Below are positions 16,802 to 28,683 of a stretch of DNA of 64,000 nt, piece by piece. The translations under genes and the position numbers were made by a program. Position 1 is the first letter of the stretch; each line of letters starts with the position of its first letter. Origin of the DNA: Thermoplasmata archaeon (GTDB lineage: Archaea; Thermoplasmatota; Thermoplasmata; Thermoplasmatales; Thermoplasmataceae); NCBI GenBank assembly GCA_021810045.1, contig JAJZJR010000001.1, positions 124,001 to 188,000 on the forward strand, given 5' to 3'. The notes beneath the pieces are model-generated. The model saw nothing but the letters and a program-made list of their open reading frames with translations, had not been told where the DNA came from and searched no databases.

Positions 16802-16874
16802 GGGCTCGTAGTCTAGTGGTTATGATACCGCCCTTACAAGGCGGTGGTCACCGGTTCAAATCCGGTCGGGCCCA
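16802..16874 (+). tRNA. tRNA-Val (anticodon UAC)
   Basis: A 73-base intron-free tRNA reading valine codons GUA/GUN. The acceptor stem GGGCTCG pairs with CGGGCCC (one G-U pair), and the discriminator is A at 16874. The anticodon stem CCGCC/GGCGG encloses the loop CTTACAA with anticodon TAC, and the T-arm carries the GGTTCAAATCC pattern. CCA is not encoded. The last four bases (16871-16874) are also the first four bases of the casposon target-site duplication, so the insertion left the tRNA intact. Confidence 0.97.
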
Positions 16875-16884
16875 TTAATTATTT
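16871..16884 (+). repeat. Left target-site duplication of the casposon
   Basis: CCCATTAATTATTT directly abuts the left terminal inverted repeat, and the identical 14 bases recur at 28670-28683 directly after the right one. The first four bases belong to tRNA-Val. A 14-base duplication is in the range known for casposase insertions. Confidence 0.95.
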
Positions 16885-16928
16885 GGGGATATAGATAAGG
16901 CCGAAAAACGTGCCGCTTTTTATATCCC
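16885..16928 (+). repeat. Left terminal inverted repeat of the casposon
   Basis: 44 bases beginning GGGGATATAGATAAGG and ending TTTATATCCC. It is the reverse complement of 28626-28669 except for one T/C difference at 16917. It contains nested palindromic ends (GGGATATA... and ...TATATCCC), so each repeat can itself fold. Confidence 0.96.
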
Positions 16929-17010
16929 ATTTTAAAAATTTTATTCATCATTATGAGATTATAGTCAATTCTCAAGAAGAAAATTATTTAGATTTCAAGA
17001 GGTCAATTTC

Positions 17011-18390
17011 TTAGAAGATCACTTGTTTTAGCTTTGTGTCAATGAATTCATCTATTTCCTCAAACATACTTTCTCTTGAAAACTCTAAGAGTTCTACTAA
17101 ATCATCTTCACTCAATGCAATTATATATCTATCTGGAAGGTAGCTTCTACATCTGTTTATCACTTTCTCTTTATCTTCAATTTTCCTACAGACCAAGATT
17201 CCGAAGTTGCCCCTATTGTTGTTGAACCTTCCTGCTAACTGGTCGAATTCAGCGTTTGCCGGGTCATGTGAAATATTCTTGACCTCTATCATAGGATAAT
17301 TACAGTTTACTATATTTGTTAGTTTGAGGAAGAAACCATCCCTTGCTGAATTTGTGAAAACAATATCCAGTCTTTTAATTCCGTCTGCCGTTTTGAATTC
17401 CATGAGTAAATTCTTGAGGGCCCCTCTGAAAATTCTTCCCAGTGCGTGGGCCACTATTCGCTGATATTCGTATGCACCATCATGACCAGGTATAATTTTC
17501 TTCAATCGTTCAATGTACAAATTCTCAATGGACAGTTCCTCTGGATTGGGTTCTATAATTTTTGTCGAAGCTTTCTGCTCTACGATTTTCAATTTTGATG
17601 TGGTTGGGTTTTTAATAGATTCATCTAGTGGAATATGCTCTCGTATTTTTTCCTGTGTTAATAACCCTCTGAATAGACTTTCATCCATTCTTTTGTATAA
17701 GCGAGCATCGTCAGGGACATTGAATCTCTTTTCTAGTTTGAATCCATAGAGATACATAACTTCATCTAGTTCTTCGACTTGAAAATATTTATAGAAGGTC
17801 TTAAAGTGGGTTTTCTTTCCCATCCAAAGTCCATCACCTAGATTGTTCTTGCCCTCTTCTTTGATCTTCTTGTAAGAACCTTCTTTTTGAGCTAACCACA
17901 ATAAATATTTTCCATCGTTAATCTTTTGGTGCAAGATATCCAATAGTATTAGTCTTTCAGCAGGTACAGGCATGACCGGAGGCACATTCAAAAGTAGAGC
18001 AAGGTCATATTTTTTTGAATTAGATATAAATGGATTAGGGAAAAGTAATTTCTCGAATCTTTTACCGTGTTTAGAAGCAATTTTGACATTTCTCTTTGTG
18101 ATGTCGTTTTCCCCAAGTTCTTCAAACTCAACTGCACCTACATTTTTTCCTTGTTTCAGTAAGAAAGGAATGTTTTTCAATTTTCCAGCACCGAATTCCA
18201 GTACAGATTCAATTTCACCATATTCACTGTTTGAAAATATATTCTTCAGAGTTGTCTGAAGAGCTTTACTTGGCTCACCTTGTGATGGGGCCGAGCCCGT
18301 CACATCAACAACTACTTCTTTTAAATTGTCATCGTCATCAGTAGGAACCCTGAATCTGTAAATTGGAGATTTCCACAGCAAATCTGTCAT
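17011..18390 (-). CDS. Methyltransferase-like domain fused to a PD-(D/E)XK nuclease domain
   Basis: A 459-residue casposon cargo protein. Residues 40-240 look like a Rossmann-fold methyltransferase: VLEFGAGKLKNIPFLLKQG (E65, G67, G69) resembles the AdoMet-binding motif I, and VGAVEFEE the next acidic strand. Residues 290-430 form a restriction-endonuclease-like domain with D342 (RLDIVF), E369-x-K371 (MIEVKNIS) and Q384, the PD-(D/E)XK pattern. This suggests a one-protein restriction or anti-phage nuclease in which the first domain recognises or modifies nucleic acid. No classical (D/N)PPY motif is visible; NVPPVMP at 135-141 could stand in for it. It has its own promoter and a palindrome at its start, and is the leftmost gene of the element. 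Confidence 0.72.
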   Translation of the reverse strand: MTDLLWKSPIYRFRVPTDDDDNLKEVVVDVTGSAPSQGEPSKALQTTLKNIFSNSEYGEIESVLEFGAGKLKNIPFLLKQGKNVGAVEFEELGENDITKRNVKIASKHGKRFEKLLFPNPFISNSKKYDLALLLNVPPVMPVPAERLILLDILHQKINDGKYLLWLAQKEGSYKKIKEEGKNNLGDGLWMGKKTHFKTFYKYFQVEELDEVMYLYGFKLEKRFNVPDDARLYKRMDESLFRGLLTQEKIREHIPLDESIKNPTTSKLKIVEQKASTKIIEPNPEELSIENLYIERLKKIIPGHDGAYEYQRIVAHALGRIFRGALKNLLMEFKTADGIKRLDIVFTNSARDGFFLKLTNIVNCNYPMIEVKNISHDPANAEFDQLAGRFNNNRGNFGILVCRKIEDKEKVINRCRSYLPDRYIIALSEDDLVELLEFSRESMFEEIDEFIDTKLKQVIF

Positions 18391-18620
18391 TTTGAACTAT
18401 CCGCAAAGTTTGAGTAATAATGTTATTACTAACGTAGTAAACTTCATATTTATATAAAATTATTCTTGTAATTGTCTATTTAATTAATTGCATTGTAAAT
18501 TACCCCCTTCTTGAATGAAAACCAAGAGCATGGATAGATAACAGATAAAGACTCAAAGAAGTCTGGAGAAATGACTTGCTGAATAGACTCGAATAACTGA
18601 AACCAGTGTGCTCTGAAGCC
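18391..18620. promoter_or_regulatory. Promoter and operator-like palindrome of the MTase-nuclease gene
   Basis: For the leftward gene at 18390, a TATA box TTATATAAA lies at 18449-18457. A palindrome AGTAATAA-TG-TTATTACT lies at 18413-18430, where transcription should begin, so a bound protein there would block it. The remainder up to the polB stop at 18621 shows no gene. Confidence 0.55.
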
Positions 18621-21272
18621 TTATGAATTGGCTTGAACTTCTAAATCTTTATCGGGCAAATTCGATCCATTAAAGGACTTGATAAGGATTCTGTGAATCT
18701 TTGACCTATTCCTCAATCCCTTTCCATTTCTGACTTTCTGTTTGAAATTCCTTAATCCTCGCTCTGAAATTCCCAAGGTCTTGACCACATTAGGTTTGAG
18801 TGTCAAAGTCCACTGAATGAAAGCTTCCTTGTTCTGGTACTCGAGATATGAATCATTGCTTACGCCGAATACACTGACTTCATCGATATTGTTTGATTCC
18901 TTGCCTATGTACCTGATTCGGTCAGAGAATACTTGTTTCCTTTGGGCTTTATTGTCAAGATAGTCGAACTTGTTATCGTTATGCCTTACGTATGCTGTTA
19001 ACACATCTTCAAGTGATTTCCAGTACTCTTTTGAGGAAAAGGGCAATTCAATTGAAGATTTGCCAGTCCTGTAATCTATGAATTCCTTATACTGGATTCC
19101 TCTTGTCTCCTTCGAGAATGGTAATGTCGGAATAACATCATTTTTCTCAGAACCTACGAGAATGAAGTTGAAGGGTTTTATCTGTTTATTAAGGGCTTTG
19201 TTTTGGTTCATTTTCTTGAATCGGTTTAGAATCAAAGGTTTGGAAACGGTGATTTGAGATACTGCCATCTTTTCTGAGTAATTTTCAAATCTATTGTTCA
19301 AGATGTCTCTCCAAATCTGTTTTCCTTCTATATCCTTAAGATGGCCTAATCCGTGTGTGGAATACTTGAGTATTTCTTTCTTTCCATTGACAGTTCTATA
19401 CAGACAATATCGCTTTGCTGATATTCCATAAAAAATTATGTTATTCAACGGATTCTTCCTTTCATCCTCTTCTATCTTGAACATTTCAACATTCATTGAA
19501 TAGGGGTTCAATGGCCTGAAAAATTCCTGGATATATTTGACAGAATCAGGGTTGACAAATATCGAATCTGTATCGCAATATGCAAAATAGCCATTTGATT
19601 CCGCTATGTTTTCTGCCAATGCCAGAATCAGTCTTGCAGAACCAGTTATCAAGGTTGCCATTATCGGATTGAAGTATGACCCCTGTTTCTCAACCCTTTC
19701 AGTCCTGAAAGGGAACTGGTCAACCGAATAGACATTAACATCAAGTGGATTCTCAAGGGTTTCCGCATTCTCTTCAATGTAAAATCCGTATGATGTTGCA
19801 TTTGCAATAATCTTCAATATTAACTGAATCTGGTCTTTATCCAGTCTATTGGATTTCTTGACCCTGATCCTTTCCTCTATGACCTTGCGTATGAAATCAT
19901 CACTTGAGTTAACTTCGATATCAGATATTTTAACATTTTTCAAGTGTGATTGTTTGCGTTCGGGATAAAACGTAAAAGCCTGAATAATCTCAGGGGTCTT
20001 TCCAGTTAGTATCTTTGAAGCGATAATATCTTCAATAGTATACCACAACTCTTTGTCAGATGTTAGATAGTTAATTCCGATGTTCTTTGTTAACCTGGAA
20101 TATTCCATTCTAACAGGTAAGATGTCGCTGTTAGGTTTAACTTTAACAATTGAGTGCATTTCAGATTTATGCCATATCTCTGGGTTTCTGAGGTCTTCAA
20201 TCTTTAAAGAATTAACAAATTCACTAACAGCGATAACATTTTCCTTTACTTTTAATTTGGCGGATTTCAGGAATCTATCCAAGTTTAACAGAGAGTAAAC
20301 AGTTGGATACATTGAGGTAAAATCAAGATAGCTAACTCTGACAGGTTTATTCCTGATCCTAACCTCAGTACGTCCACCATAATACGAACTCATAACAAAA
20401 CCTAACACATCCTTTGGAAAGTCTGGATTGCATTCCATAAACGGTTTTATTCCCATTTTGTTAAGATATCCCTTTCCTATTGTTGCTGGTGAATAGAGCT
20501 TGTTAACTGGGTTAGACAGGTTAAACATCTCATATCGTTTCAGAGCAGATTGATACAATTCAGATGTTATTCTAACGTCATTTATGTTGTAGTCGATGTA
20601 TTTCTCGTTGATTTTCCCATGCTGTTCAATCCGAGTTTTTCTTGAAACATTGAAATCACTGCATGCCGAATCCAACGAATGTGATCTATCTGTTAATGCA
20701 AAAGTTAGAGTCTTGAGATCAACAAAGTATCCTGAATAATGCCTGTATCTCTTATCACTCGCTTTTCTCAACGGCCTTGCAAATGAAATGAAAGACCTTT
20801 TCTGGTCTATGCTCTGTATACGAATTCGTGGATTCCTCACATCCTCTGACAGCTTTAGGGAAAATCCGTCTTTTGTTTTGCGTGAGATTCCATAACTAAT
20901 TGCCAATCTTGACAAGTCAAAAGGCAGGTTAAAGCCTATAACCTCAGCTCTCATTCTGAAGGCGTATGGGTAAAACAGGTTATCCACAAAATCTCTGACA
21001 CTCATGACCTGTATGTTATTTTTTGACCCGTAAACTTCAATGATTTTTCTTTTATCATCCTGAATATCACCATAATACAGATACCAATCTTCTTTGAAAC
21101 CGGTGCTAATCTTTGTTCTGATAAGACATGATCCAAAAGTCAGGTTTTGATACTGATCTATGGTAGTCTCAGTGTCCAGAACCAGCGTGATGTTTGGATT
21201 ATGATAATCTGGTTCTTTGTACTTGAATTCTGGCCGGTTATCCGTGTATGCTCTCACAAAGATATCGCTCAT
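18621..21272 (-). CDS. polB: Casposon family B DNA polymerase
   Basis: An 883-residue family B DNA polymerase that presumably copies the casposon. The 3'-5' exonuclease motifs are intact: D33-T-E35 (LVLDTETT), N115..F118-D119 (GFNLPFDL) and Y228-NIN-D232. Polymerase motifs are YYGGR (297-301), motif A DFTSMYP (317-323), motif B K487..NATSYG (491-496), motif C YCDTDS (565-570), and a KRY element after it. It is the last gene of a five-gene leftward operon and overlaps the HNH gene by 4 bases. It closely fits the polymerases carried by euryarchaeal casposons. I cannot tell whether it is protein-primed: no clear TPR2-type insertion can be identified by eye. Confidence 0.93.
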   Translation of the reverse strand: MSDIFVRAYTDNRPEFKYKEPDYHNPNITLVLDTETTIDQYQNLTFGSCLIRTKISTGFKEDWYLYYGDIQDDKRKIIEVYGSKNNIQVMSVRDFVDNLFYPYAFRMRAEVIGFNLPFDLSRLAISYGISRKTKDGFSLKLSEDVRNPRIRIQSIDQKRSFISFARPLRKASDKRYRHYSGYFVDLKTLTFALTDRSHSLDSACSDFNVSRKTRIEQHGKINEKYIDYNINDVRITSELYQSALKRYEMFNLSNPVNKLYSPATIGKGYLNKMGIKPFMECNPDFPKDVLGFVMSSYYGGRTEVRIRNKPVRVSYLDFTSMYPTVYSLLNLDRFLKSAKLKVKENVIAVSEFVNSLKIEDLRNPEIWHKSEMHSIVKVKPNSDILPVRMEYSRLTKNIGINYLTSDKELWYTIEDIIASKILTGKTPEIIQAFTFYPERKQSHLKNVKISDIEVNSSDDFIRKVIEERIRVKKSNRLDKDQIQLILKIIANATSYGFYIEENAETLENPLDVNVYSVDQFPFRTERVEKQGSYFNPIMATLITGSARLILALAENIAESNGYFAYCDTDSIFVNPDSVKYIQEFFRPLNPYSMNVEMFKIEEDERKNPLNNIIFYGISAKRYCLYRTVNGKKEILKYSTHGLGHLKDIEGKQIWRDILNNRFENYSEKMAVSQITVSKPLILNRFKKMNQNKALNKQIKPFNFILVGSEKNDVIPTLPFSKETRGIQYKEFIDYRTGKSSIELPFSSKEYWKSLEDVLTAYVRHNDNKFDYLDNKAQRKQVFSDRIRYIGKESNNIDEVSVFGVSNDSYLEYQNKEAFIQWTLTLKPNVVKTLGISERGLRNFKQKVRNGKGLRNRSKIHRILIKSFNGSNLPDKDLEVQANS

Positions 21273-21670
21273 AGAATCACCGGATATCTTGATGTCAGGT
21301 ATTCTGCAATCAGCTTGTATATGCCAATACCTGTTCTTTCATGCTTCAATTCACAAATGTCAATAATTCCCCTCTCCAAGAGAATTTCAGAATTCTGGTA
21401 ATTCCATAACCTCTGTTTGTCTGTTAGCCTTCTATGGCATTCCAGACATACGGTCATAACCTCGTTGCCATGACTTCTACCTCTGATGTGATGCACTTCC
21501 AACTTTGTTGGTGATTTGCAAATCTCACAATCGTTCTTCTTGTCTCTATGCTCATTCTCTAAAATATCCGTTATCCAGTCAATAGACTCTTGGTATTCAC
21601 TGTCAATAATTTCCTTGGCCCTGAATATGCCTTCTAATATTGCACTGGATATGGATATCTTGGAATTCAA
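21269..21670 (-). CDS. HNH endonuclease of the casposon
   Basis: A 133-residue HNH nuclease, a conserved casposon companion gene. The metal-binding frame is CEIC (C48, C51) followed by LEVHHIRGRSHGNE (catalytic H60/H61, N69) and CLECHRRL (C75, C78, H79). The N-terminal 40 residues are helical and may bind DNA. It overlaps polB and the upstream gene by 4 bases each, so it is made with the polymerase. Proposed roles in casposons include processing replication or excision intermediates; none is proven here. Confidence 0.9.
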   Translation of the reverse strand: MNSKISISSAILEGIFRAKEIIDSEYQESIDWITDILENEHRDKKNDCEICKSPTKLEVHHIRGRSHGNEVMTVCLECHRRLTDKQRLWNYQNSEILLERGIIDICELKHERTGIGIYKLIAEYLTSRYPVIL

Positions 21671-22317
21671 GACTTGTAAATCTCCCAGAATTCCGGTTCT
21701 TCTTGACTTTCAGCAATTTCATACAGCTTATCTGGGTCTGTTTCGAAGTGGTGTAATTCACCATTGGCATCTTTGAAAGGTTTCCTGAATGACTTCAAGA
21801 CATCTGTCTTTCCTGTTCTCAAAAATTCCCTAACAGCAGAGTTATACTTTCCTATTCTTGATGCAGTTCGTGAATCTCTGATTTCAACCCAAGACTGTTT
21901 GCCCTTCTCATTAAGACTCATGACCCTTGATATTCTATCCTGAGACTTTGGAGTCCATTTTCCTCTGACTTTCAGAAAAGCATTGGTGTTCTTGATAACG
22001 GTTTCAGGAGATGTGTGCAACTCTCTTGACGCACTTGAAAGCGATTCACCATCCCTGACTTTTCTTAGAACTTCAAGTGATTTTTCCCTTTGATTCAGTT
22101 CTTTCCTAGAAATAGATTTCCATGAATGTTTGTATATTGGTTCAGGTTTTATTGTTGATACAACTCTTTCCTTGGATTTTGGATGACCTCTTATCTGTGA
22201 TAATGAAGCGTTTGGATATTTTGCATGCAACCTGGTGATTCTATTCCGGTATGAATCTGAACCATTGAAGCTGGATAGCCAATCCTGAAATGTCCTGTAT
22301 TCCGGTGAAAATGTCAT
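21667..22317 (-). CDS. Casposon protein with helix-turn-helix-like repeats
   Basis: A 216-residue basic protein with no firm family match. A helix-turn-helix-like segment appears near residues 84-115 (VRDGESLSSASRELHTSPETVIKNT). An earlier stretch, LHAKYPNASLSQIRGHPKSKER, has a similar Lys/Arg-rich helix pattern. The C-terminal 40 residues are acidic (FETDPDKLYEIAESQEEPEF). It sits between the HNH gene and the next small gene with 4-base overlaps on both sides, so it is co-translated with the polymerase. A DNA-binding role in replication or transposition is the natural guess. Confidence 0.7.
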   Translation of the reverse strand: MTFSPEYRTFQDWLSSFNGSDSYRNRITRLHAKYPNASLSQIRGHPKSKERVVSTIKPEPIYKHSWKSISRKELNQREKSLEVLRKVRDGESLSSASRELHTSPETVIKNTNAFLKVRGKWTPKSQDRISRVMSLNEKGKQSWVEIRDSRTASRIGKYNSAVREFLRTGKTDVLKSFRKPFKDANGELHHFETDPDKLYEIAESQEEPEFWEIYKS

Positions 22318-22787
22318 TTGGAATCGCCTTTGAGCAATGTGCTGAATTTTTCATAAGCTGTGCTGTCAAACAGGTTCTCAAAAAGAATTATGTCAGATTC
22401 AAGAAAACGGTGCTTTTTGAAGAGGTCGGCAAAATCTGAAACTTCTATTTCCGAAATAGGCTCTTTAGTTATTAGTGAAATAACGATCTTATTGAGGGCC
22501 AAGGCAGTAAGAACTTCAAATATTACCCCAATTGTTTTGCCCCTGTACCATAGTGAATTGCATTCTGACACTGACAAGAGGTAGGGCTTCATTGACCTCT
22601 TACCTTTGAACTCATTGCTATTTGGGTTAATCGTGATTGAATGCCCAAATGAATTCAGGAAATAGAGGTCATTCATCTCCGTTGGTGTGTTGTATAATCT
22701 GATTGAATGAGCATAGTAGATTTTATTCACTCCGTGAGCATCGATATTTGAACTGTATGTCTGGTTATCCGACCAATCAGACATCAT
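22314..22787 (-). CDS. Hypothetical casposon protein
   Basis: A 157-residue protein I do not recognise. It has a Ser/Tyr/Asn-rich N-terminus (MSDWSDNQTYSSNIDAHGVNK begins the frame) and a central hydrophobic stretch IGVIFEVLTALALNKIVISLI (about 85-105) that could be a buried helix rather than a membrane span. The C-terminus is acidic and helical. It overlaps both neighbours by 4 bases in the leftward polB operon. A replication or regulatory accessory role is possible, but nothing in the sequence is diagnostic. Confidence 0.62.
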   Translation of the reverse strand: MMSDWSDNQTYSSNIDAHGVNKIYYAHSIRLYNTPTEMNDLYFLNSFGHSITINPNSNEFKGKRSMKPYLLSVSECNSLWYRGKTIGVIFEVLTALALNKIVISLITKEPISEIEVSDFADLFKKHRFLESDIILFENLFDSTAYEKFSTLLKGDSK

Positions 22788-22972
22788 TTTTTCTCACTCT
22801 CTGGATTCCAAATGCCAAATGTCTCACGATTCAGCTTATTCCTTACAGAACCACACCTTGGGCGTTTCACCCTGTATTTTGGAATGCCCTTAGAATAATT
22901 CCATTCATGCCCACAAACCAAGCATTTCACTGGTGTCTTGACAATTTTTTGTTCACTCGCATCTATCACCAC
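22784..22972 (-). CDS. Small zinc-ribbon-like casposon protein
   Basis: A 62-residue basic protein, first gene of the leftward operon. It has CLVCGHEW (C18 and C21) and, 20 residues on, RPRCGSVRNKLNRE. The fourth cysteine expected of a zinc ribbon (CPRC) is Arg here, so the ribbon is degenerate unless a His completes it. It starts with tandem GTG codons (22972 or 22969). It overlaps the next gene by 4 bases and is divergent from the winged-helix regulator across 52 bases. It may be a small DNA-binding or regulatory protein. Confidence 0.65.
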   Translation of the reverse strand: MVIDASEQKIVKTPVKCLVCGHEWNYSKGIPKYRVKRPRCGSVRNKLNRETFGIWNPESEKK

Positions 22973-22988
22973 ATCACATATTATGTGG

Positions 22989-23024
22989 AAATATTCTAAT
23001 AGTCAGTTGACTATACTTTAGTCA
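22989..23024. promoter_or_regulatory. Shared divergent promoter and operator in the casposon
   Basis: The 52-base gap between the two casposon operons has one AT-rich core, AATATTCTAAT (about 22989-23000), that could serve as TATA element in both directions. Next to it is the palindrome TAGTCA-GT-TGACTA (23000-23013), with a further AGTCA half-site (23020-23024) touching the ATG of the winged-helix gene. A repressor bound here would shut off its own gene and probably the polB operon. Confidence 0.6.
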
Positions 23025-23654
23025 ATGGCTTATGATAGATTCCGGACTCAAAAGGAAACGAAAGAGAGGAATGAGAGACTGGTTCTGAAACTGCTTTTTG
23101 ATTCACCAATGAGATTCAAGGATTTGCTGGAAGAGACCGGACTATCAAGAGCTGGTCTTGATATGATATTGAAAAGACTTCAAGAGACAAAACAGATAGA
23201 ATCCATTATCGATAGTGGGAAACCTGCCTATTCACTAACAAAGAAAGGTGAAAAGACAGTAAAAGCAATCCCCATTATTCAGGATAACTTAGAATCTATA
23301 CTCAAGGTAAAACACGAATATTCCAATGAAATGGGAAAATTCAAACTTGGATACAAAGGGATAAACTTTGACGTGTTGAATGATGCTCAAGTAGATGCCA
23401 ACCTTACAAACGTTTTTAAGGAAATTGTAAAGGAATGCCTCAAGAAATCAGAGAATACCATAGCGGAAATTCCCAGTATTATCAGGGATAAATCAGAACT
23501 AAAGGGAAAAATGGTACTTGCTCTCACAATTGATTTTGATGATATGAGAGAGCAATTTCTGAATAGAAATAATAAAACTTGGAAAAAATTCGGATTGAAA
23601 TGGGAAAATGAGGAAGATTGGGAAAGACTATTTTCAGGGGATGATCCAAAATGA
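23025..23654 (+). CDS. Winged-helix transcriptional regulator of the casposon
   Basis: A 209-residue regulator. Residues 10-85 form a winged helix-turn-helix: RLVLKLLFDSPMRFKDLLEE, TGLSRAGLDMILKRL as recognition helix, then a wing, GKPAYSLTKKGEKTV. The remaining 120 residues are helical with a C-terminal acidic/aromatic part (KTWKKFGLKWENEEDWERLF). It is the first gene of the rightward operon and overlaps the casposase gene by 4 bases, so the two are made together. AGTCA half-sites around its own start suggest autorepression. Winged-helix genes beside cas1 are common in casposons. Confidence 0.85.
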   Translation: MAYDRFRTQKETKERNERLVLKLLFDSPMRFKDLLEETGLSRAGLDMILKRLQETKQIESIIDSGKPAYSLTKKGEKTVKAIPIIQDNLESILKVKHEYSNEMGKFKLGYKGINFDVLNDAQVDANLTNVFKEIVKECLKKSENTIAEIPSIIRDKSELKGKMVLALTIDFDDMREQFLNRNNKTWKKFGLKWENEEDWERLFSGDDPK

Positions 23655-24892
23655 ATCCATTGCTGTTATCTGGATTTGGAATAACCATTGAGGTTAACAA
23701 GGCCCGCTTGACCGTAAAACAAAAGGATGAAATTGTTGAGTTTGAGCCTCACAGAATGCCTTACGATTCCATTGTCATTGACGGCCATTACGGTTCTGTG
23801 AGTTTTGAGGCCATGCGTTGGTTATCCAAACATGATGTGTCTGTTATCCTGTTAAACTGGAATGGCAACCTTTTATCATCAACATTCCCAAAAGAAGGTA
23901 ATAACGGTCAACTGAGAATAAAACAGTATGAAAAATACCTCAATGCAGAGGAAAGAACGTTCATAGCGGAAAAAATAATAAATGAAAAAATAGAAAAATC
24001 ACTTGTTTTTCTTGAAAATCTATCAAATTTCTATAAAAAAATAAATTTTGAAAAAATAAAAAATATATTTTCCAAGGAATTTGAGGATTTTAATTTGAAA
24101 AAAGAAAAAATCAAGAAAAATAAAATAAATACAGAAAAAAGCGATTTAAAAAAGAAAATAACTGATTTAATGATGTATGAAGGCAGAGTAGCATCTGCCT
24201 ACTGGTCTGAATTGTCAATTATTTTCAATAAAATAGCACCGGAATTTAATTTTCAGTCCAGAAAAAACCTCTCATATTCCTGGAATATGAATGCATCTGA
24301 CCCGATAAATGCCCTGCTGAATTATGGATACGCAATTCTTGAGGGAATGATCAGAAAATGCATCAATTCAGTTGGTCTTGACCTCTCAATTGGATTTTTA
24401 CATGAAATAGCACCGTCAAAATATCCATTGGTATACGATTTTCAGGAATTATTCAGACATGTTGTGGATTATTCAGTTATCCAAATTCTTGAATCCGGTT
24501 TAAAAAAATCAGATTTTATAACAACCGAAAATTATCATATTCGGTTGAAGCCAAATACAGCAAAATTATTGATTGAAAAAATCAAAGAGAATTTCAATCA
24601 GCGTTATGATTTTAGAAATAAAAAGCACACTCTTGAAAATATAATGCTTGAGGATATAAGGGAATTTGGGAAATATCTATCAGAAAAGTCAAAGAACTTT
24701 GAATTTTTTATGCCCGAAATAAATATAAAGAGAAATGACAGCATCAACTTGAGGAAAAAAATAGAGTCAATCGAGCCAGAAGAAAGAAAAAAACTAAAAA
24801 TTAATAAATCAACATTGTGGTATCAACAAAAGAAAATTAAAGAAGGTAAGCCGGTTAAACTTTACGAAAAGACTAAAGTGAAAATCTCATGA
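23651..24892 (+). CDS. cas1: Casposase (Cas1-family integrase)
   Basis: A 413-residue Cas1 homologue that acts as the transposase: it joins the 3' ends of the excised element to staggered positions in target DNA. The N-terminal beta domain includes DSIVIDGHYGSVSFEAMRWL (39-58) and SVILLNWNGNLL (64-75). The helical catalytic domain has the Cas1 residues E177 (YEGRVASAYW), H251 (GFLHE) and E266 (YDFQELFRH). A lysine-rich segment (127-170) precedes it. After the Cas1 domain an extra tail (about 365-413, with INKSTLWYQQKKIKEGKP) resembles the C-terminal helix-turn-helix of casposases and is absent from CRISPR Cas1. The gene is strikingly AT-rich from 23.9 to 24.9 kb. It overlaps both neighbours by 4 bases; no cas2 or array is present. 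Confidence 0.95.
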   Translation: MNPLLLSGFGITIEVNKARLTVKQKDEIVEFEPHRMPYDSIVIDGHYGSVSFEAMRWLSKHDVSVILLNWNGNLLSSTFPKEGNNGQLRIKQYEKYLNAEERTFIAEKIINEKIEKSLVFLENLSNFYKKINFEKIKNIFSKEFEDFNLKKEKIKKNKINTEKSDLKKKITDLMMYEGRVASAYWSELSIIFNKIAPEFNFQSRKNLSYSWNMNASDPINALLNYGYAILEGMIRKCINSVGLDLSIGFLHEIAPSKYPLVYDFQELFRHVVDYSVIQILESGLKKSDFITTENYHIRLKPNTAKLLIEKIKENFNQRYDFRNKKHTLENIMLEDIREFGKYLSEKSKNFEFFMPEINIKRNDSINLRKKIESIEPEERKKLKINKSTLWYQQKKIKEGKPVKLYEKTKVKIS

Positions 24893-25806
24893 ATAACACT
24901 AGTTTTCCTAAATTTGATGAATTTTTATCTCCAATACTAAATTATTGCAAAGACAAACAAGAACACACACTTTCGGAGACCATAGATAAAATGGCGTATT
25001 ATTTTAGAATGAGCGATGACCAGAAAAATGCTCTCTTGCCTAGTGGTAAACGCACCTACATCTATGATAGAGTTGAATGGGCAATCACTTACCTTGTTCA
25101 AGCTGGGTTATTAGAGAGAACTGGCAGGTCAAAGTTCAAAATATCAGAGCTAGGGTTGAATGAACTTTCTGTAATGCCAGAGAAAATACCATACTCCTAT
25201 CTGCAAAAATTCCCATCTTTTGTGAAATTCAAGGAACTACGCCATCAGAAGAAAAAAAATAATGACAATTCCGAAAGTATGACCCCAGATGAGGAACTTG
25301 AAGTCCTTTTCGAAAAAAGGGAAGATATTCTCATACAAAATTTATTAAGTGCAATTTCCAACATAAAACCTTCAGACTTTGAAAGACTCATTATAGATTT
25401 AGTCCTAGCTCTTGGATATGGGAAAAATCATGAGGAAATGGCAAGAGTCTTAGGGAAAACAGGTGACCAAGGAATAGACGGGGAGATATCACAGGATAAA
25501 CTTGGTTTTGATAAAATATATCTTCAGGCTAAAAAATGGGATTCCAAAAGTTCAATTGGTTCAGGTCAAATAAGGGATTTTATAGGCGCATTAACAATCA
25601 AAAACGCATTAAAAGGGATTTTCATAACAACAGCTTCATTTTCAAAGGAAGCTAAAGAAACAGCCTTGAAAGATAACACTCACAAGATCGTTCTGATAGA
25701 TGGAGATGAACTGGCTAGTCTGATGATTGAGAACGGGATTGGTGTAAGATCTGTCAGAAATTATGAATCAAAGGAAATTGATGAAGACTATTTTGAATCC
25801 TTTTGA
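24889..25806 (+). CDS. mrr: Mrr-type (type IV) restriction endonuclease
   Basis: A 305-residue protein with the two-part Mrr layout. The N-terminal winged-helix domain (about 1-105) contains YDRVEWAITYLVQAGLLERTG. The C-terminal nuclease domain (155-295) shows GDQGIDGEI (D197), YLQAKKW (Q213-x-K215) and QIRDF (Q227), the Mrr variant of the PD-(D/E)XK centre in which Q replaces the E. Mrr proteins cut modified or foreign DNA. It overlaps the casposase gene by 4 bases, so it is part of the same operon, and it lies 15 bases ahead of the type IIG-like gene. Confidence 0.9.
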   Translation: MNNTSFPKFDEFLSPILNYCKDKQEHTLSETIDKMAYYFRMSDDQKNALLPSGKRTYIYDRVEWAITYLVQAGLLERTGRSKFKISELGLNELSVMPEKIPYSYLQKFPSFVKFKELRHQKKKNNDNSESMTPDEELEVLFEKREDILIQNLLSAISNIKPSDFERLIIDLVLALGYGKNHEEMARVLGKTGDQGIDGEISQDKLGFDKIYLQAKKWDSKSSIGSGQIRDFIGALTIKNALKGIFITTASFSKEAKETALKDNTHKIVLIDGDELASLMIENGIGVRSVRNYESKEIDEDYFESF

Positions 25807-25821
25807 AGGGTGTGAAATGAA

Positions 25822-28515
25822 ATGAAGAATTCCAAGGGGCAAGAAGAATATGAAATAGATTTCGAAAGAGTTGTAGAGTTAGTTTCCAAATATGAACAGA
25901 TAAAGAAATCAGGTGAAATCAAGAAGTACAATGAAGAATCCACAAAGAAGGATTTCATCTTGCCCTTGTTTGAAGCCCTTGGTTGGAATGTATATAACAG
26001 GGCCAAAAGAAATGATTCTATCAGTGCAGAGGAAACCATTTCCAAGAAGAGAGTGGATTATGGTTTCCGTATAAACGGTATTCCTAAGTTTTTCCTTGAA
26101 GCCAAATCCCTGAAAGAAGAAAATATACAGACAAATCCTAAATACATTACCCAAGCAATAGACTACGCCTGGATGAAATCGTGTTCATGGGCGATATTGT
26201 GTAATTTTGAAACTATTGCAGTATTTAATGCAGATTGGAAAGGATCAAACTTTGGAAATAACCTATTGTTTGTTCTTCATCCCAACGATTTCATTTCTGA
26301 TAAGAGATTTGAACATCTCTCAAAGGTTGCATTCATAAAAAATGAACTTGACGATGTTGCTTCGAAATATGGCAAGAAGCAAACAAAGAATACGATCAAC
26401 AAACAGCTCTTGAACGATATGATCCTATTCCGTGAGGTTCTTACAAAGGATATTGTAAGAAATAATCAGGATAAACATCTCTCTCAAGATGACCTTGATG
26501 AATCAGTCCAGAGGATTCTTGACCGTTTGATCTTCATTAGGAATGCAGAGGACAGAGAGCTTGAAGAAAATCGCCTACAATCCAATGTAAGACAATGGGC
26601 TTCGAGGGGAAAGGGTGAGTTGGTCAAGGAAATTTCAAAAGTGTACTCATACTTTGATGATCAATACAACAGCAAACTTTTTGCAAAGCATCTTTGTGAT
26701 CACCTGTATCTTGACAATGAGGTACTGCTTGAGGTAATCGAGGGCTTGAATCATTCAAAGGATAATTCATACAGGTATGATTTCTCAATAATCGAATCCG
26801 ATGTTCTTGGAAATATTTATGAGCAGTATTTGGGGAATATCCTCAAAACTACACCAAAAAGGGCAAAATTATCTGAATCCAAAACACATAGAAAAGAACA
26901 GGGTATTTACTATACACCTTCTACCATAGTTGATTACATCGTTAACAACACTGTTGGAGAATACCTCAAAACGCACACACCAGAGGAAATCAAAAACGTT
27001 AAGATACTTGACCCCGCATGCGGTTCTGGAAGCTTTCTTATTCGTGTATACAAAGAGCTTGAAAATTATTGGAAAGAAGAACTTAAGCTCAACGAAAGTG
27101 ATTTGAAACAAACAAGGTTTGATATTGAAAATTCAGAGAAAGTGTATACTCTTAAAACCGAGATTCTCAAAAATAACATCTTTGGCGTTGACCTAGATCC
27201 AAAAGCAGTAGAAATTGCTCAACTGAATTTGTTATTACAGATTTCAGAGAGAAAACATAGATTGCCAGAACTTCAAAAGAATATAAAGATTGGAAACAGT
27301 CTGATAGACGATTCTTCTGTAAGCGACAGGGCATTTGTGTGGGAAAAGGAATTCGAGGCCATAATGAAAGAGGGTGGGTTTGACATCGTGGTAGGTAATC
27401 CGCCTTATTTTAACGTTAAATCTGATGATGTGTTGAAGGCCTCAAGGGTGTATAGGGAAATAGCTAATGGCGTGGTTAATTCCGCTTCTTTGTTTATGCA
27501 AAAAGGGAAGTCATTGTTGCGGGAATCTGGTTATCTTGGGTACATTGTGCCAAAATCGTTTCTAATAGTTGATTCCTGGAAAACTATCAGAAATAACCTA
27601 TTACAAACTAGGTTTACTTCTTTAAAGGATGTTAGTGTCGCATTCGAAGATGTTGGGTTAGAGCAAGTTGTCTTCATTAACCAAAATGTCCAAAACAAAG
27701 ATTCGCAAGTACGTATTGACGTTCTAGACGGGACATCTTTTCTGATTCCTCAGTCATTTTTCGAAGAACGTCAACTAATACTCACATCTATGTATCCAGA
27801 CCTTTTGAATATTGTTAAGAAAATAGAAAAGGACTCAATTGAGTTAGGCGAAATTTCTGAAATGCCTAGAGGTGTAACTGTTAAGTCTAGTGAGTATGAG
27901 CCAGTCTACAAAAATAATAATCTCCAAGTATTGGGTGGTACAAATGTTGAGAGATATTTAATCAAAGATGGTAATAAACGTAAACCAAACAGGTACTTAC
28001 CCAAAGACGATAAAAGACTGTTTTCAAAGAAGAATTTGTTCATCCCCAATAGGATTGTCTACCAAAATATAGTATCAAGCGTTCCTAAGATTGTGGCTAC
28101 AATAGATCAAAAAGGTATACCAACTGATGATACACTCAACAACCTATTAATTAAAAATGACAACTTCAATTATAATTATGTATTGGGAATACTAAATTCA
28201 AACCTAATGACTTTTTACCTGAGATATGCGATAATTAACAATTCTACTCTTACAGTACATCTTGATAAACCATACTTGGGTTTGATTCCCATAAAGAAAG
28301 TATCTCCAGAAAAGCAGACAGAGATAGGGGGCTTAGTCAATGAACTTCTAACCGTTTATAGTGAAATTTCGGAAGAAAGTTCTCAATTTAATGATAAGAG
28401 TATTAGGCTTAGAACCTATGCACGTTCTATTGAGAATAAGTTAAATTTGGCTATCAATGACTTATACGGCATAAATAAACAAGATGCTGAGAGGATTAAA
28501 ATATTGATTTCATGA
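25822..28515 (+). CDS. Type IIG-like restriction-modification protein (Eco57I-like)
   Basis: An 897-residue single-chain restriction-methylation protein. An N-terminal nuclease domain has D79 (RVDYGF) and E93-x-K95 (FLEAKS). A helical spacer leads to the adenine methyltransferase domain with motif I DPACGSGSF (D397 onward), the acidic FGVDLDPKAVEIAQLNLLLQI and the catalytic N526-PPY (VGNPPYF). The C-terminal half is a target-recognition domain (about 650-897) with a TaqI-like specificity region. Cutting and modification in one protein means no separate immunity gene is required. It is the last gene of the rightward casposon operon and ends about 110 bases before the right terminal repeat. Confidence 0.92.
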   Translation: MKNSKGQEEYEIDFERVVELVSKYEQIKKSGEIKKYNEESTKKDFILPLFEALGWNVYNRAKRNDSISAEETISKKRVDYGFRINGIPKFFLEAKSLKEENIQTNPKYITQAIDYAWMKSCSWAILCNFETIAVFNADWKGSNFGNNLLFVLHPNDFISDKRFEHLSKVAFIKNELDDVASKYGKKQTKNTINKQLLNDMILFREVLTKDIVRNNQDKHLSQDDLDESVQRILDRLIFIRNAEDRELEENRLQSNVRQWASRGKGELVKEISKVYSYFDDQYNSKLFAKHLCDHLYLDNEVLLEVIEGLNHSKDNSYRYDFSIIESDVLGNIYEQYLGNILKTTPKRAKLSESKTHRKEQGIYYTPSTIVDYIVNNTVGEYLKTHTPEEIKNVKILDPACGSGSFLIRVYKELENYWKEELKLNESDLKQTRFDIENSEKVYTLKTEILKNNIFGVDLDPKAVEIAQLNLLLQISERKHRLPELQKNIKIGNSLIDDSSVSDRAFVWEKEFEAIMKEGGFDIVVGNPPYFNVKSDDVLKASRVYREIANGVVNSASLFMQKGKSLLRESGYLGYIVPKSFLIVDSWKTIRNNLLQTRFTSLKDVSVAFEDVGLEQVVFINQNVQNKDSQVRIDVLDGTSFLIPQSFFEERQLILTSMYPDLLNIVKKIEKDSIELGEISEMPRGVTVKSSEYEPVYKNNNLQVLGGTNVERYLIKDGNKRKPNRYLPKDDKRLFSKKNLFIPNRIVYQNIVSSVPKIVATIDQKGIPTDDTLNNLLIKNDNFNYNYVLGILNSNLMTFYLRYAIINNSTLTVHLDKPYLGLIPIKKVSPEKQTEIGGLVNELLTVYSEISEESSQFNDKSIRLRTYARSIENKLNLAINDLYGINKQDAERIKILIS

Positions 28516-28625
28516 TAGACTTTTGTCATTCCTTAAAGTGATAATTATGGTTCCAATAGGAATTCAGATCGTTAGACTTGGAATTTTCTTTTAAATCTGA
28601 TAAGGTCAAGTAAAATTTTTGAAAA

Positions 28626-28669
28626 GGGATATAAAAGGCGGCACGTTTTTCGGCCTTATCTATATCCCC
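28626..28669 (-). repeat. Right terminal inverted repeat of the casposon
   Basis: 44 bases that mirror 16885-16928 with a single difference. The element ends at the fourth C of a seven-C run; the next three C's belong to the target duplication. Confidence 0.96.
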
Positions 28670-28683
28670 CCCATTAATTATTT
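28670..28683 (+). repeat. Right target-site duplication of the casposon
   Basis: CCCATTAATTATTT, identical to 16871-16884. It carries a copy of the last four tRNA-Val bases followed by the sequence that originally lay downstream of the tRNA. Confidence 0.95.

Follow-up and report, generated by a model that had tools for sequence, protein, structure and literature searches.

Casposons are archaeal mobile elements thought to be ancestral to CRISPR. The target site duplication (TSD) of the superfamily has a median length of 15 bp, and family-2 elements are defined in part by a family-B DNA polymerase (PolB) of the RNA-primed PolB3-related group. A documented hallmark of family-2 casposases is a C-terminal helix-turn-helix (HTH) (PMC4046053, PMC6977970). 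In the M. mazei casposase, E162, H232 and E247 are the catalytic residues and deletion of the HTH abolishes integration (PMC6977970); the casposon itself, MetMaz-C1, is mobile in vivo (PMC10359463). Mutagenesis of the A. boonei casposase showed that it needs TCAAATC 8 bp upstream together with C+1/C+2 (PMC6614799).

Here we analyse a window of 64,000 nucleotides from a Thermoplasmatales archaeon. The gene at 23651-24892 almost certainly encodes a casposase, the integrase/transposase of the complete family-2 casposon that occupies 16885-28669. The element is a clear new example of this known class and not a new kind. The initial annotation had proposed a Cas1 casposase in this gene, and its proposal is borne out by a solo Cas1 with a family-2 HTH lying within an element that is bounded by terminal inverted repeats (TIRs) and a TSD and carries PolB and HNH genes. 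The element boundaries, target site and cargo were absent from that annotation.

The element and its target site

The casposon measures 11,785 bp and is complete in sequence (Table 1). Its TIRs, one of the features that define the superfamily, are 76 nt long and 88% identical; a second such feature, the TSD, is a perfect 14-bp repeat that abuts both TIRs directly. G+C content is about 0.28-0.39 within the element and about 0.39-0.47 in most of the flanking DNA, with the 1 kb immediately to the left (0.36-0.39) resembling the element. The genes for the 157-aa protein, the HTH protein, the HNH nuclease, PolB and the 459-aa cargo protein run leftward, and those for the winged-HTH protein, Cas1, the Mrr-type enzyme and the type IIG enzyme run rightward, the ATG of the Mrr-type gene overlapping the cas1 stop codon. 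The HNH nuclease and HTH proteins are those expected of a family-2 core. PolB, also expected of the superfamily, retains all of its exonuclease and polymerase motifs (DTET, FNLPFD, YNINDV, DFTSMYP, NATSYG and YCDTDS), which are conserved across seven casposon PolBs; its profile match is a weak one to Pol alpha, and a Pfam search returned no match. The protein encoded at 17011-18390 has the look of a methyltransferase-plus-nuclease fusion, with weak matches to Methyltransf_23 and PDC-M36A.

Table 1. Positions of the casposon features and of the target gene within the window.
Feature	Position	Strand	Basis
tRNA-Val (TAC), target gene, intact after insertion	16802..16874	+	ARAGORN; empty site in congeners
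T-loop motif TCAAATC, 8 bp before TSD	16856..16862	+	PMC6614799 comparison
Left TSD CCCATTAATTATTT	16871..16884	+	
Left TIR, begins GGGGATATAG	16885..16960	+	inverted-repeat comparison
Cargo: 459-aa methyltransferase-like protein, C-terminal match to candidate defence family PDC-M36A	17011..18390	-	weak matches
Family-B DNA polymerase (PolB), 883 aa	18621..21272	-	motifs
HNH endonuclease	21269..21670	-	Pfam HNH 3.2e-4
HTH protein, conserved in related casposons	21667..22317	-	
157-aa protein, function unassigned, kept only in nearest casposons	22314..22787	-	
Winged-HTH protein (HxlR/Csa3-like), overlaps cas1 by 4 nt	23025..23654	+	
cas1, family-2 casposase, 413 aa	23651..24892	+	Pfam; alignment to M. 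mazei casposase; AlphaFold2; tree; Foldseek
Predicted C-terminal HTH tail of casposase, residues 345-413 (third helix 386-397)	24683..24889	+	M. mazei alignment; structure predictions
Cargo: Mrr-type (type IV) restriction endonuclease	24889..25806	+	Pfam Mrr_cat 5.4e-31; PADLOC mREase_IV 1.9e-73
Cargo: type IIG restriction-modification enzyme, 897 aa	25822..28515	+	PADLOC REase_MTase_IIG 1.2e-106; Pfam Eco57I
Right TIR	28594..28669	-	inverted-repeat comparison
Right TSD CCCATTAATTATTT	28670..28683	+	

The left TSD copy takes in the final four bases of tRNA-Val(TAC) and continues beyond them. The target reads TCAAATC-CGGTCGGG-CCC; insertion at a tRNA 3' end, where TCAAATC precedes the TSD by 8 bp, is a family-2 trait. 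The pattern TCRAAT[CT], followed by a spacer of 7-8 bp before a run of C's, was present at all 11 sites compared, including the element's own (tRNA-Val, -Pro, -Met and -Ile and one unassigned tRNA-like end). The match between this target and the A. boonei motif supports the view that casposases recognise the T-loop of tRNAs and can thereby insert at many different tRNA genes. The T-loop is conserved in tRNAs, which would explain the use of different tRNA genes by close relatives; that conservation also means that a motif common to these sites is no proof on its own of recognition by the casposase.

In two congeners the element is absent, and a phosphoribosyltransferase gene lies no more than a few hundred bases downstream of tRNA-Val(TAC); the same phosphoribosyltransferase gene sits beyond the right end of the casposon here. 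A further observation comes from the congener G002 (L077:2170-3316), in which the same tRNA-Val is followed by a duplicated tRNA 3' end and CCCATTTACAGCCA and then by an isolated casposon-like TIR; this is probably what is left of an earlier casposon displaced by another insertion.

With 12% of positions differing between the two TIRs, the insertion is perhaps not a recent one; the genome holds one copy of the element. Together with the finding that relics make up most of the related copies in the order, these points would suit a casposon that is complete in sequence and nonetheless dead, an old insertion whose restriction cargo the host keeps as the transposase heads toward decay. We consider this unlikely, though worth weighing: the frames of the Cas1, PolB, HNH and HTH genes are intact, conservation extends to the catalytic residues and the polymerase motifs, the two TSD copies remain identical, the insertion is missing from congeners, and TIRs that are copied together may differ from each other even in a re-inserted element.

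The casposase

The product of the cas1 gene in this complete casposon matches Pfam Cas_Cas1 (PF01867) over residues 6-312 (2.5e-57). A genome-wide search found it to be the sole Cas1 in the 2.26-Mb genome and found no match to Cas2, the partner of Cas1 in the CRISPR-Cas adaptation module, in agreement with the initial annotation, which had noted the lack of Cas2. That annotation had also placed the catalytic residues at E177, H251 and E266; these align with E162, H232 and E247 of the M. mazei casposase (6OPM), and their columns are invariant across 11 relatives. By the Cas1 and Cas2 searches and the alignments, this is a cas1 unlinked to CRISPR-Cas with its catalytic residues intact, as the definition of a casposon asks. 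The closest PDB entry by sequence is 6OPM (E 5e-76). An AlphaFold2 model built from an 11-sequence alignment (mean pLDDT 80.5) likewise returned 6OPM as its top Foldseek match (4e-24), with Z 38.0 and rmsd 2.3 over 332 residues; the second-best fold match is A. fulgidus Cas1 (Z 32.1). In a tree that included the Cas1 proteins of related genomes, the protein groups with casposases and M. mazei (92/90), and its neighbour is the casposase of the uncultured archaeon ASS_A1 (100/99).

The Cas1 fold, and a score above the cut-off for the general cas1 model TIGR00287, would also suit a CRISPR-associated Cas1 that has lost its Cas2 and array or has them at another locus. We rejected this reading, whose probability we regard as negligible, on the Cas1 and Cas2 searches, the model scores and the tree: the genome has no Cas2 match, all type-specific CRISPR Cas1 models scored below their cut-offs, and the tree separates the protein from the CRISPR Cas1s of related genomes. 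The tail is moreover homologous to that of the M. mazei casposase, and the gene is a solo one inside an element whose TIR and TSD boundaries already refute this reading.

The casposase extends about 65 residues past the Cas1 fold, in a tail that includes INKSTLWYQQKK. The HTH-like stretch noted there by the initial annotation is supported by alignment to the M. mazei C-terminal region, which continues through residue 404, and by helices that AlphaFold2 predicts at 365-373, 376-381 and 386-397 (block pLDDT 87-90), the third formed by the KSTLWYQQKK stretch. Modelled alone, the tail gives the same helices (pLDDT 76). A Foldseek search with the tail alone found no significant match among solved structures, so the case for an HTH is made by sequence homology and prediction; 6OPM is unusable as a template for the tail because the M. 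mazei HTH is disordered in it (PMC6977970). On this basis the tail is the predicted C-terminal HTH of family 2. Such a tail, as a documented family-2 hallmark, is not unusual (PMC4046053, PMC6977970).

A lysine-rich insert at residues 127-170 had also been singled out. The enrichment is real (15 Lys in 44 residues, with Lys at 11% elsewhere in the protein), but the insert does not stand out as special: it is eight residues longer in ASS_A1, the nearest relative, and nearly absent in Thermogymnomonas, which rules out a special domain. It is helical in the AlphaFold2 model and is best read as a length-variable helical linker. The sharp mid-gene rise in A+T content is likewise present, from 0.58-0.63 over codons 1-100 to 0.81 (codons 101-150) and 0.74 (151-200), followed by 0.62 (201-250) and a return to 0.69-0.73.

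The anatomy of the element is evident from its sequence, through the TIRs, the 14-bp TSD, the tRNA-Val target with its T-loop motif, the core genes and the empty sites in congeners. Every step of the mechanism past this anatomy we infer, largely by analogy. If the biochemistry of the M. mazei and A. boonei enzymes carries over, both casposon ends (3' ...CTATATCCCC) would be held by a tetramer of Cas1 that works without Cas2 (PMC6977970, PMC6614799, PMC10359463), and two staggered transesterifications 14 bp apart would join them at the tRNA 3' end via E177, H251 and E266. The HTH tail would be needed for integration, as it is in M. mazei, and plausibly reads the leader motif TCAAATC, a published suggestion with which our data are consistent. 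PolB, probably with the HNH and HTH proteins, would replicate the element and fill gaps. The cargo, consisting of Mrr, the type IIG restriction-modification enzyme and the methyltransferase-like protein, probably serves in host defence and travels with the element.

Relatives, relics and a putative cargo slot

Related casposons are located at many tRNAs in Thermoplasmatales, and many copies are relics, retaining just the Cas1 3' end and cargo. The longest downstream frame starts exactly on the cas1 stop (ATGA or TTGA) at 17 of the 22 Cas1 3' ends in this clade; two of those frames are short, and two further 3' ends have an in-frame ATG at the stop. Loci with cargo on the cas1 stop are L024, L026-L031, L033, L035, L041, L042, L049-L051 and L060, and the arrangement persists even at loci where only the final 100-150 codons of cas1 survive. 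The downstream genes belong to unrelated families (Mrr, type IIG, TIR-domain effector, AbiV, HEAT-repeat, glycosyltransferase, methyltransferase and amine oxidase). Among nine inspected cas1 3' ends, eight carry GTGA, GGTGA or AGGTGA 7 nt before the ATG, and the ninth carries GGAG 8 nt before it. We infer from these patterns that the cas1 3' end acts as a translation-coupled cargo slot; the site between PolB and the left TIR is possibly a second one, behind PolB.

Incomplete and rearranged elements were found as well. The G023 element (L027:6688-18062), at a tRNA-Pro, has both ends and a 15-bp TSD, lacks the PolB/HNH core and carries dTDP-sugar (RmlA/RmlD/RmlC-like) and glycosyltransferase genes; it is a cargo-only casposon derivative. 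In the MAG FK_Sedi_A_Bin.118, an element spans two contigs that share an exact 127-nt overlap inside cas1. Each of its ends has a copy of a 14-bp duplication, and its inverted repeat, 413 nt long at 97.6%, takes in the PolB 3' end. Because this repeat includes the PolB 3' end, the C-terminal PolB pieces seen by tRNA-side TIRs in relics can belong to a long inverted repeat, which argues against the separate composite element that we had entertained. At a tRNA-Met (L035:7654-16216), a tandem array repeats a Cas1 3' stub, a HEAT-repeat gene and a PolB 3' piece three times, with two junction copies 95% identical.

Beyond the order, three contigs binned as Micrarchaeota and one as Nanoarchaeota encode casposases at 50-56% identity, with TIRs and TSDs, at tRNA-Glu or tRNA-Ser (L037, L039, L043 and L045; host assignment is by binning only). 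The ends of L043 and L045 have adjacent TIR copies at tRNA-Glu, suggesting tandem insertions. A literature search, incomplete for casposon papers, returned only passing mentions that name casposons with Micrarchaeota or Nanoarchaeota, and a search of IMG/VR found no casposases. Contigs binned as Nitrosopumilus (L038 and L040) carry HTH-bearing, family-2-like casposases (50-54%); family-1 casposons without an HTH have been described from that genus.

Collectively, these observations raise a broader reading that we offer tentatively, judging it to fall just short of an even chance. Thermoplasmatales casposons would be exchangeable gene-delivery cassettes in which the cas1 3' end, with its Shine-Dalgarno-like GGTGA and its ATGA, is a built-in slot for the exchange of unrelated defence and surface-glycan genes. 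Once the mobile core had decayed, the Cas1 stub, cargo and TIR would persist at many tRNAs as casposon-born defence islands, and the non-autonomous, cargo-filled derivatives and the DPANN relatives suggest spread between the members of acidophile communities.

Comparison with known casposons

The casposon reported here joins family 2 with its limits fully mapped and its core genes intact; its site is empty in congeners, and the same element has inserted independently in another genus. The surrounding family offers a natural experiment on casposon cargo (restriction, abortive-infection and glycan genes) and decay, with a bearing on the route by which a Cas1 transposon might come to serve immunity. 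Of greater interest may be what the sequences suggest for Thermoplasmatales, namely the cargo slot and the pattern of relics.

The independent insertion is that of ASS_A1 (CP009479), whose casposase is 85% identical and whose element shares the gene order, the TIR ends and a TSD of 14 bp, there CCCATCATATTCAT. It differs in lying at tRNA-Pro(GGG), in having a different gene between PolB and the left TIR, and in that its PolB and type IIG genes appear interrupted by transposase genes (L024:9306-10501 and L067:62-1261). The PolB interruption is an rve-domain transposase; the other insert has no Pfam match and was called a transposase by eye.

The likeness to the A. boonei family-2 casposon is drawn from published features and not from sequence alignment: both have a solo Cas1 with a C-terminal HTH and PolB, HNH and HTH genes, and both use a tRNA 3' target with a 14-15 bp TSD that starts with CC and is preceded at 8 bp by TCAAATC (PMC4046053, PMC6614799). 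The target is tRNA-Pro in A. boonei, whereas it is tRNA-Val here, and the cargo here is Mrr and a type IIG enzyme. With MetMaz-C1, the present element shares the casposase fold (Z 38), the catalytic residues, the HTH tail, the TIR end ...TATATCCC and a 14-bp target (PMC6977970). The two casposases are about 36% identical, the lysine-rich linker insert belongs to the protein described here, and the target sequences differ.
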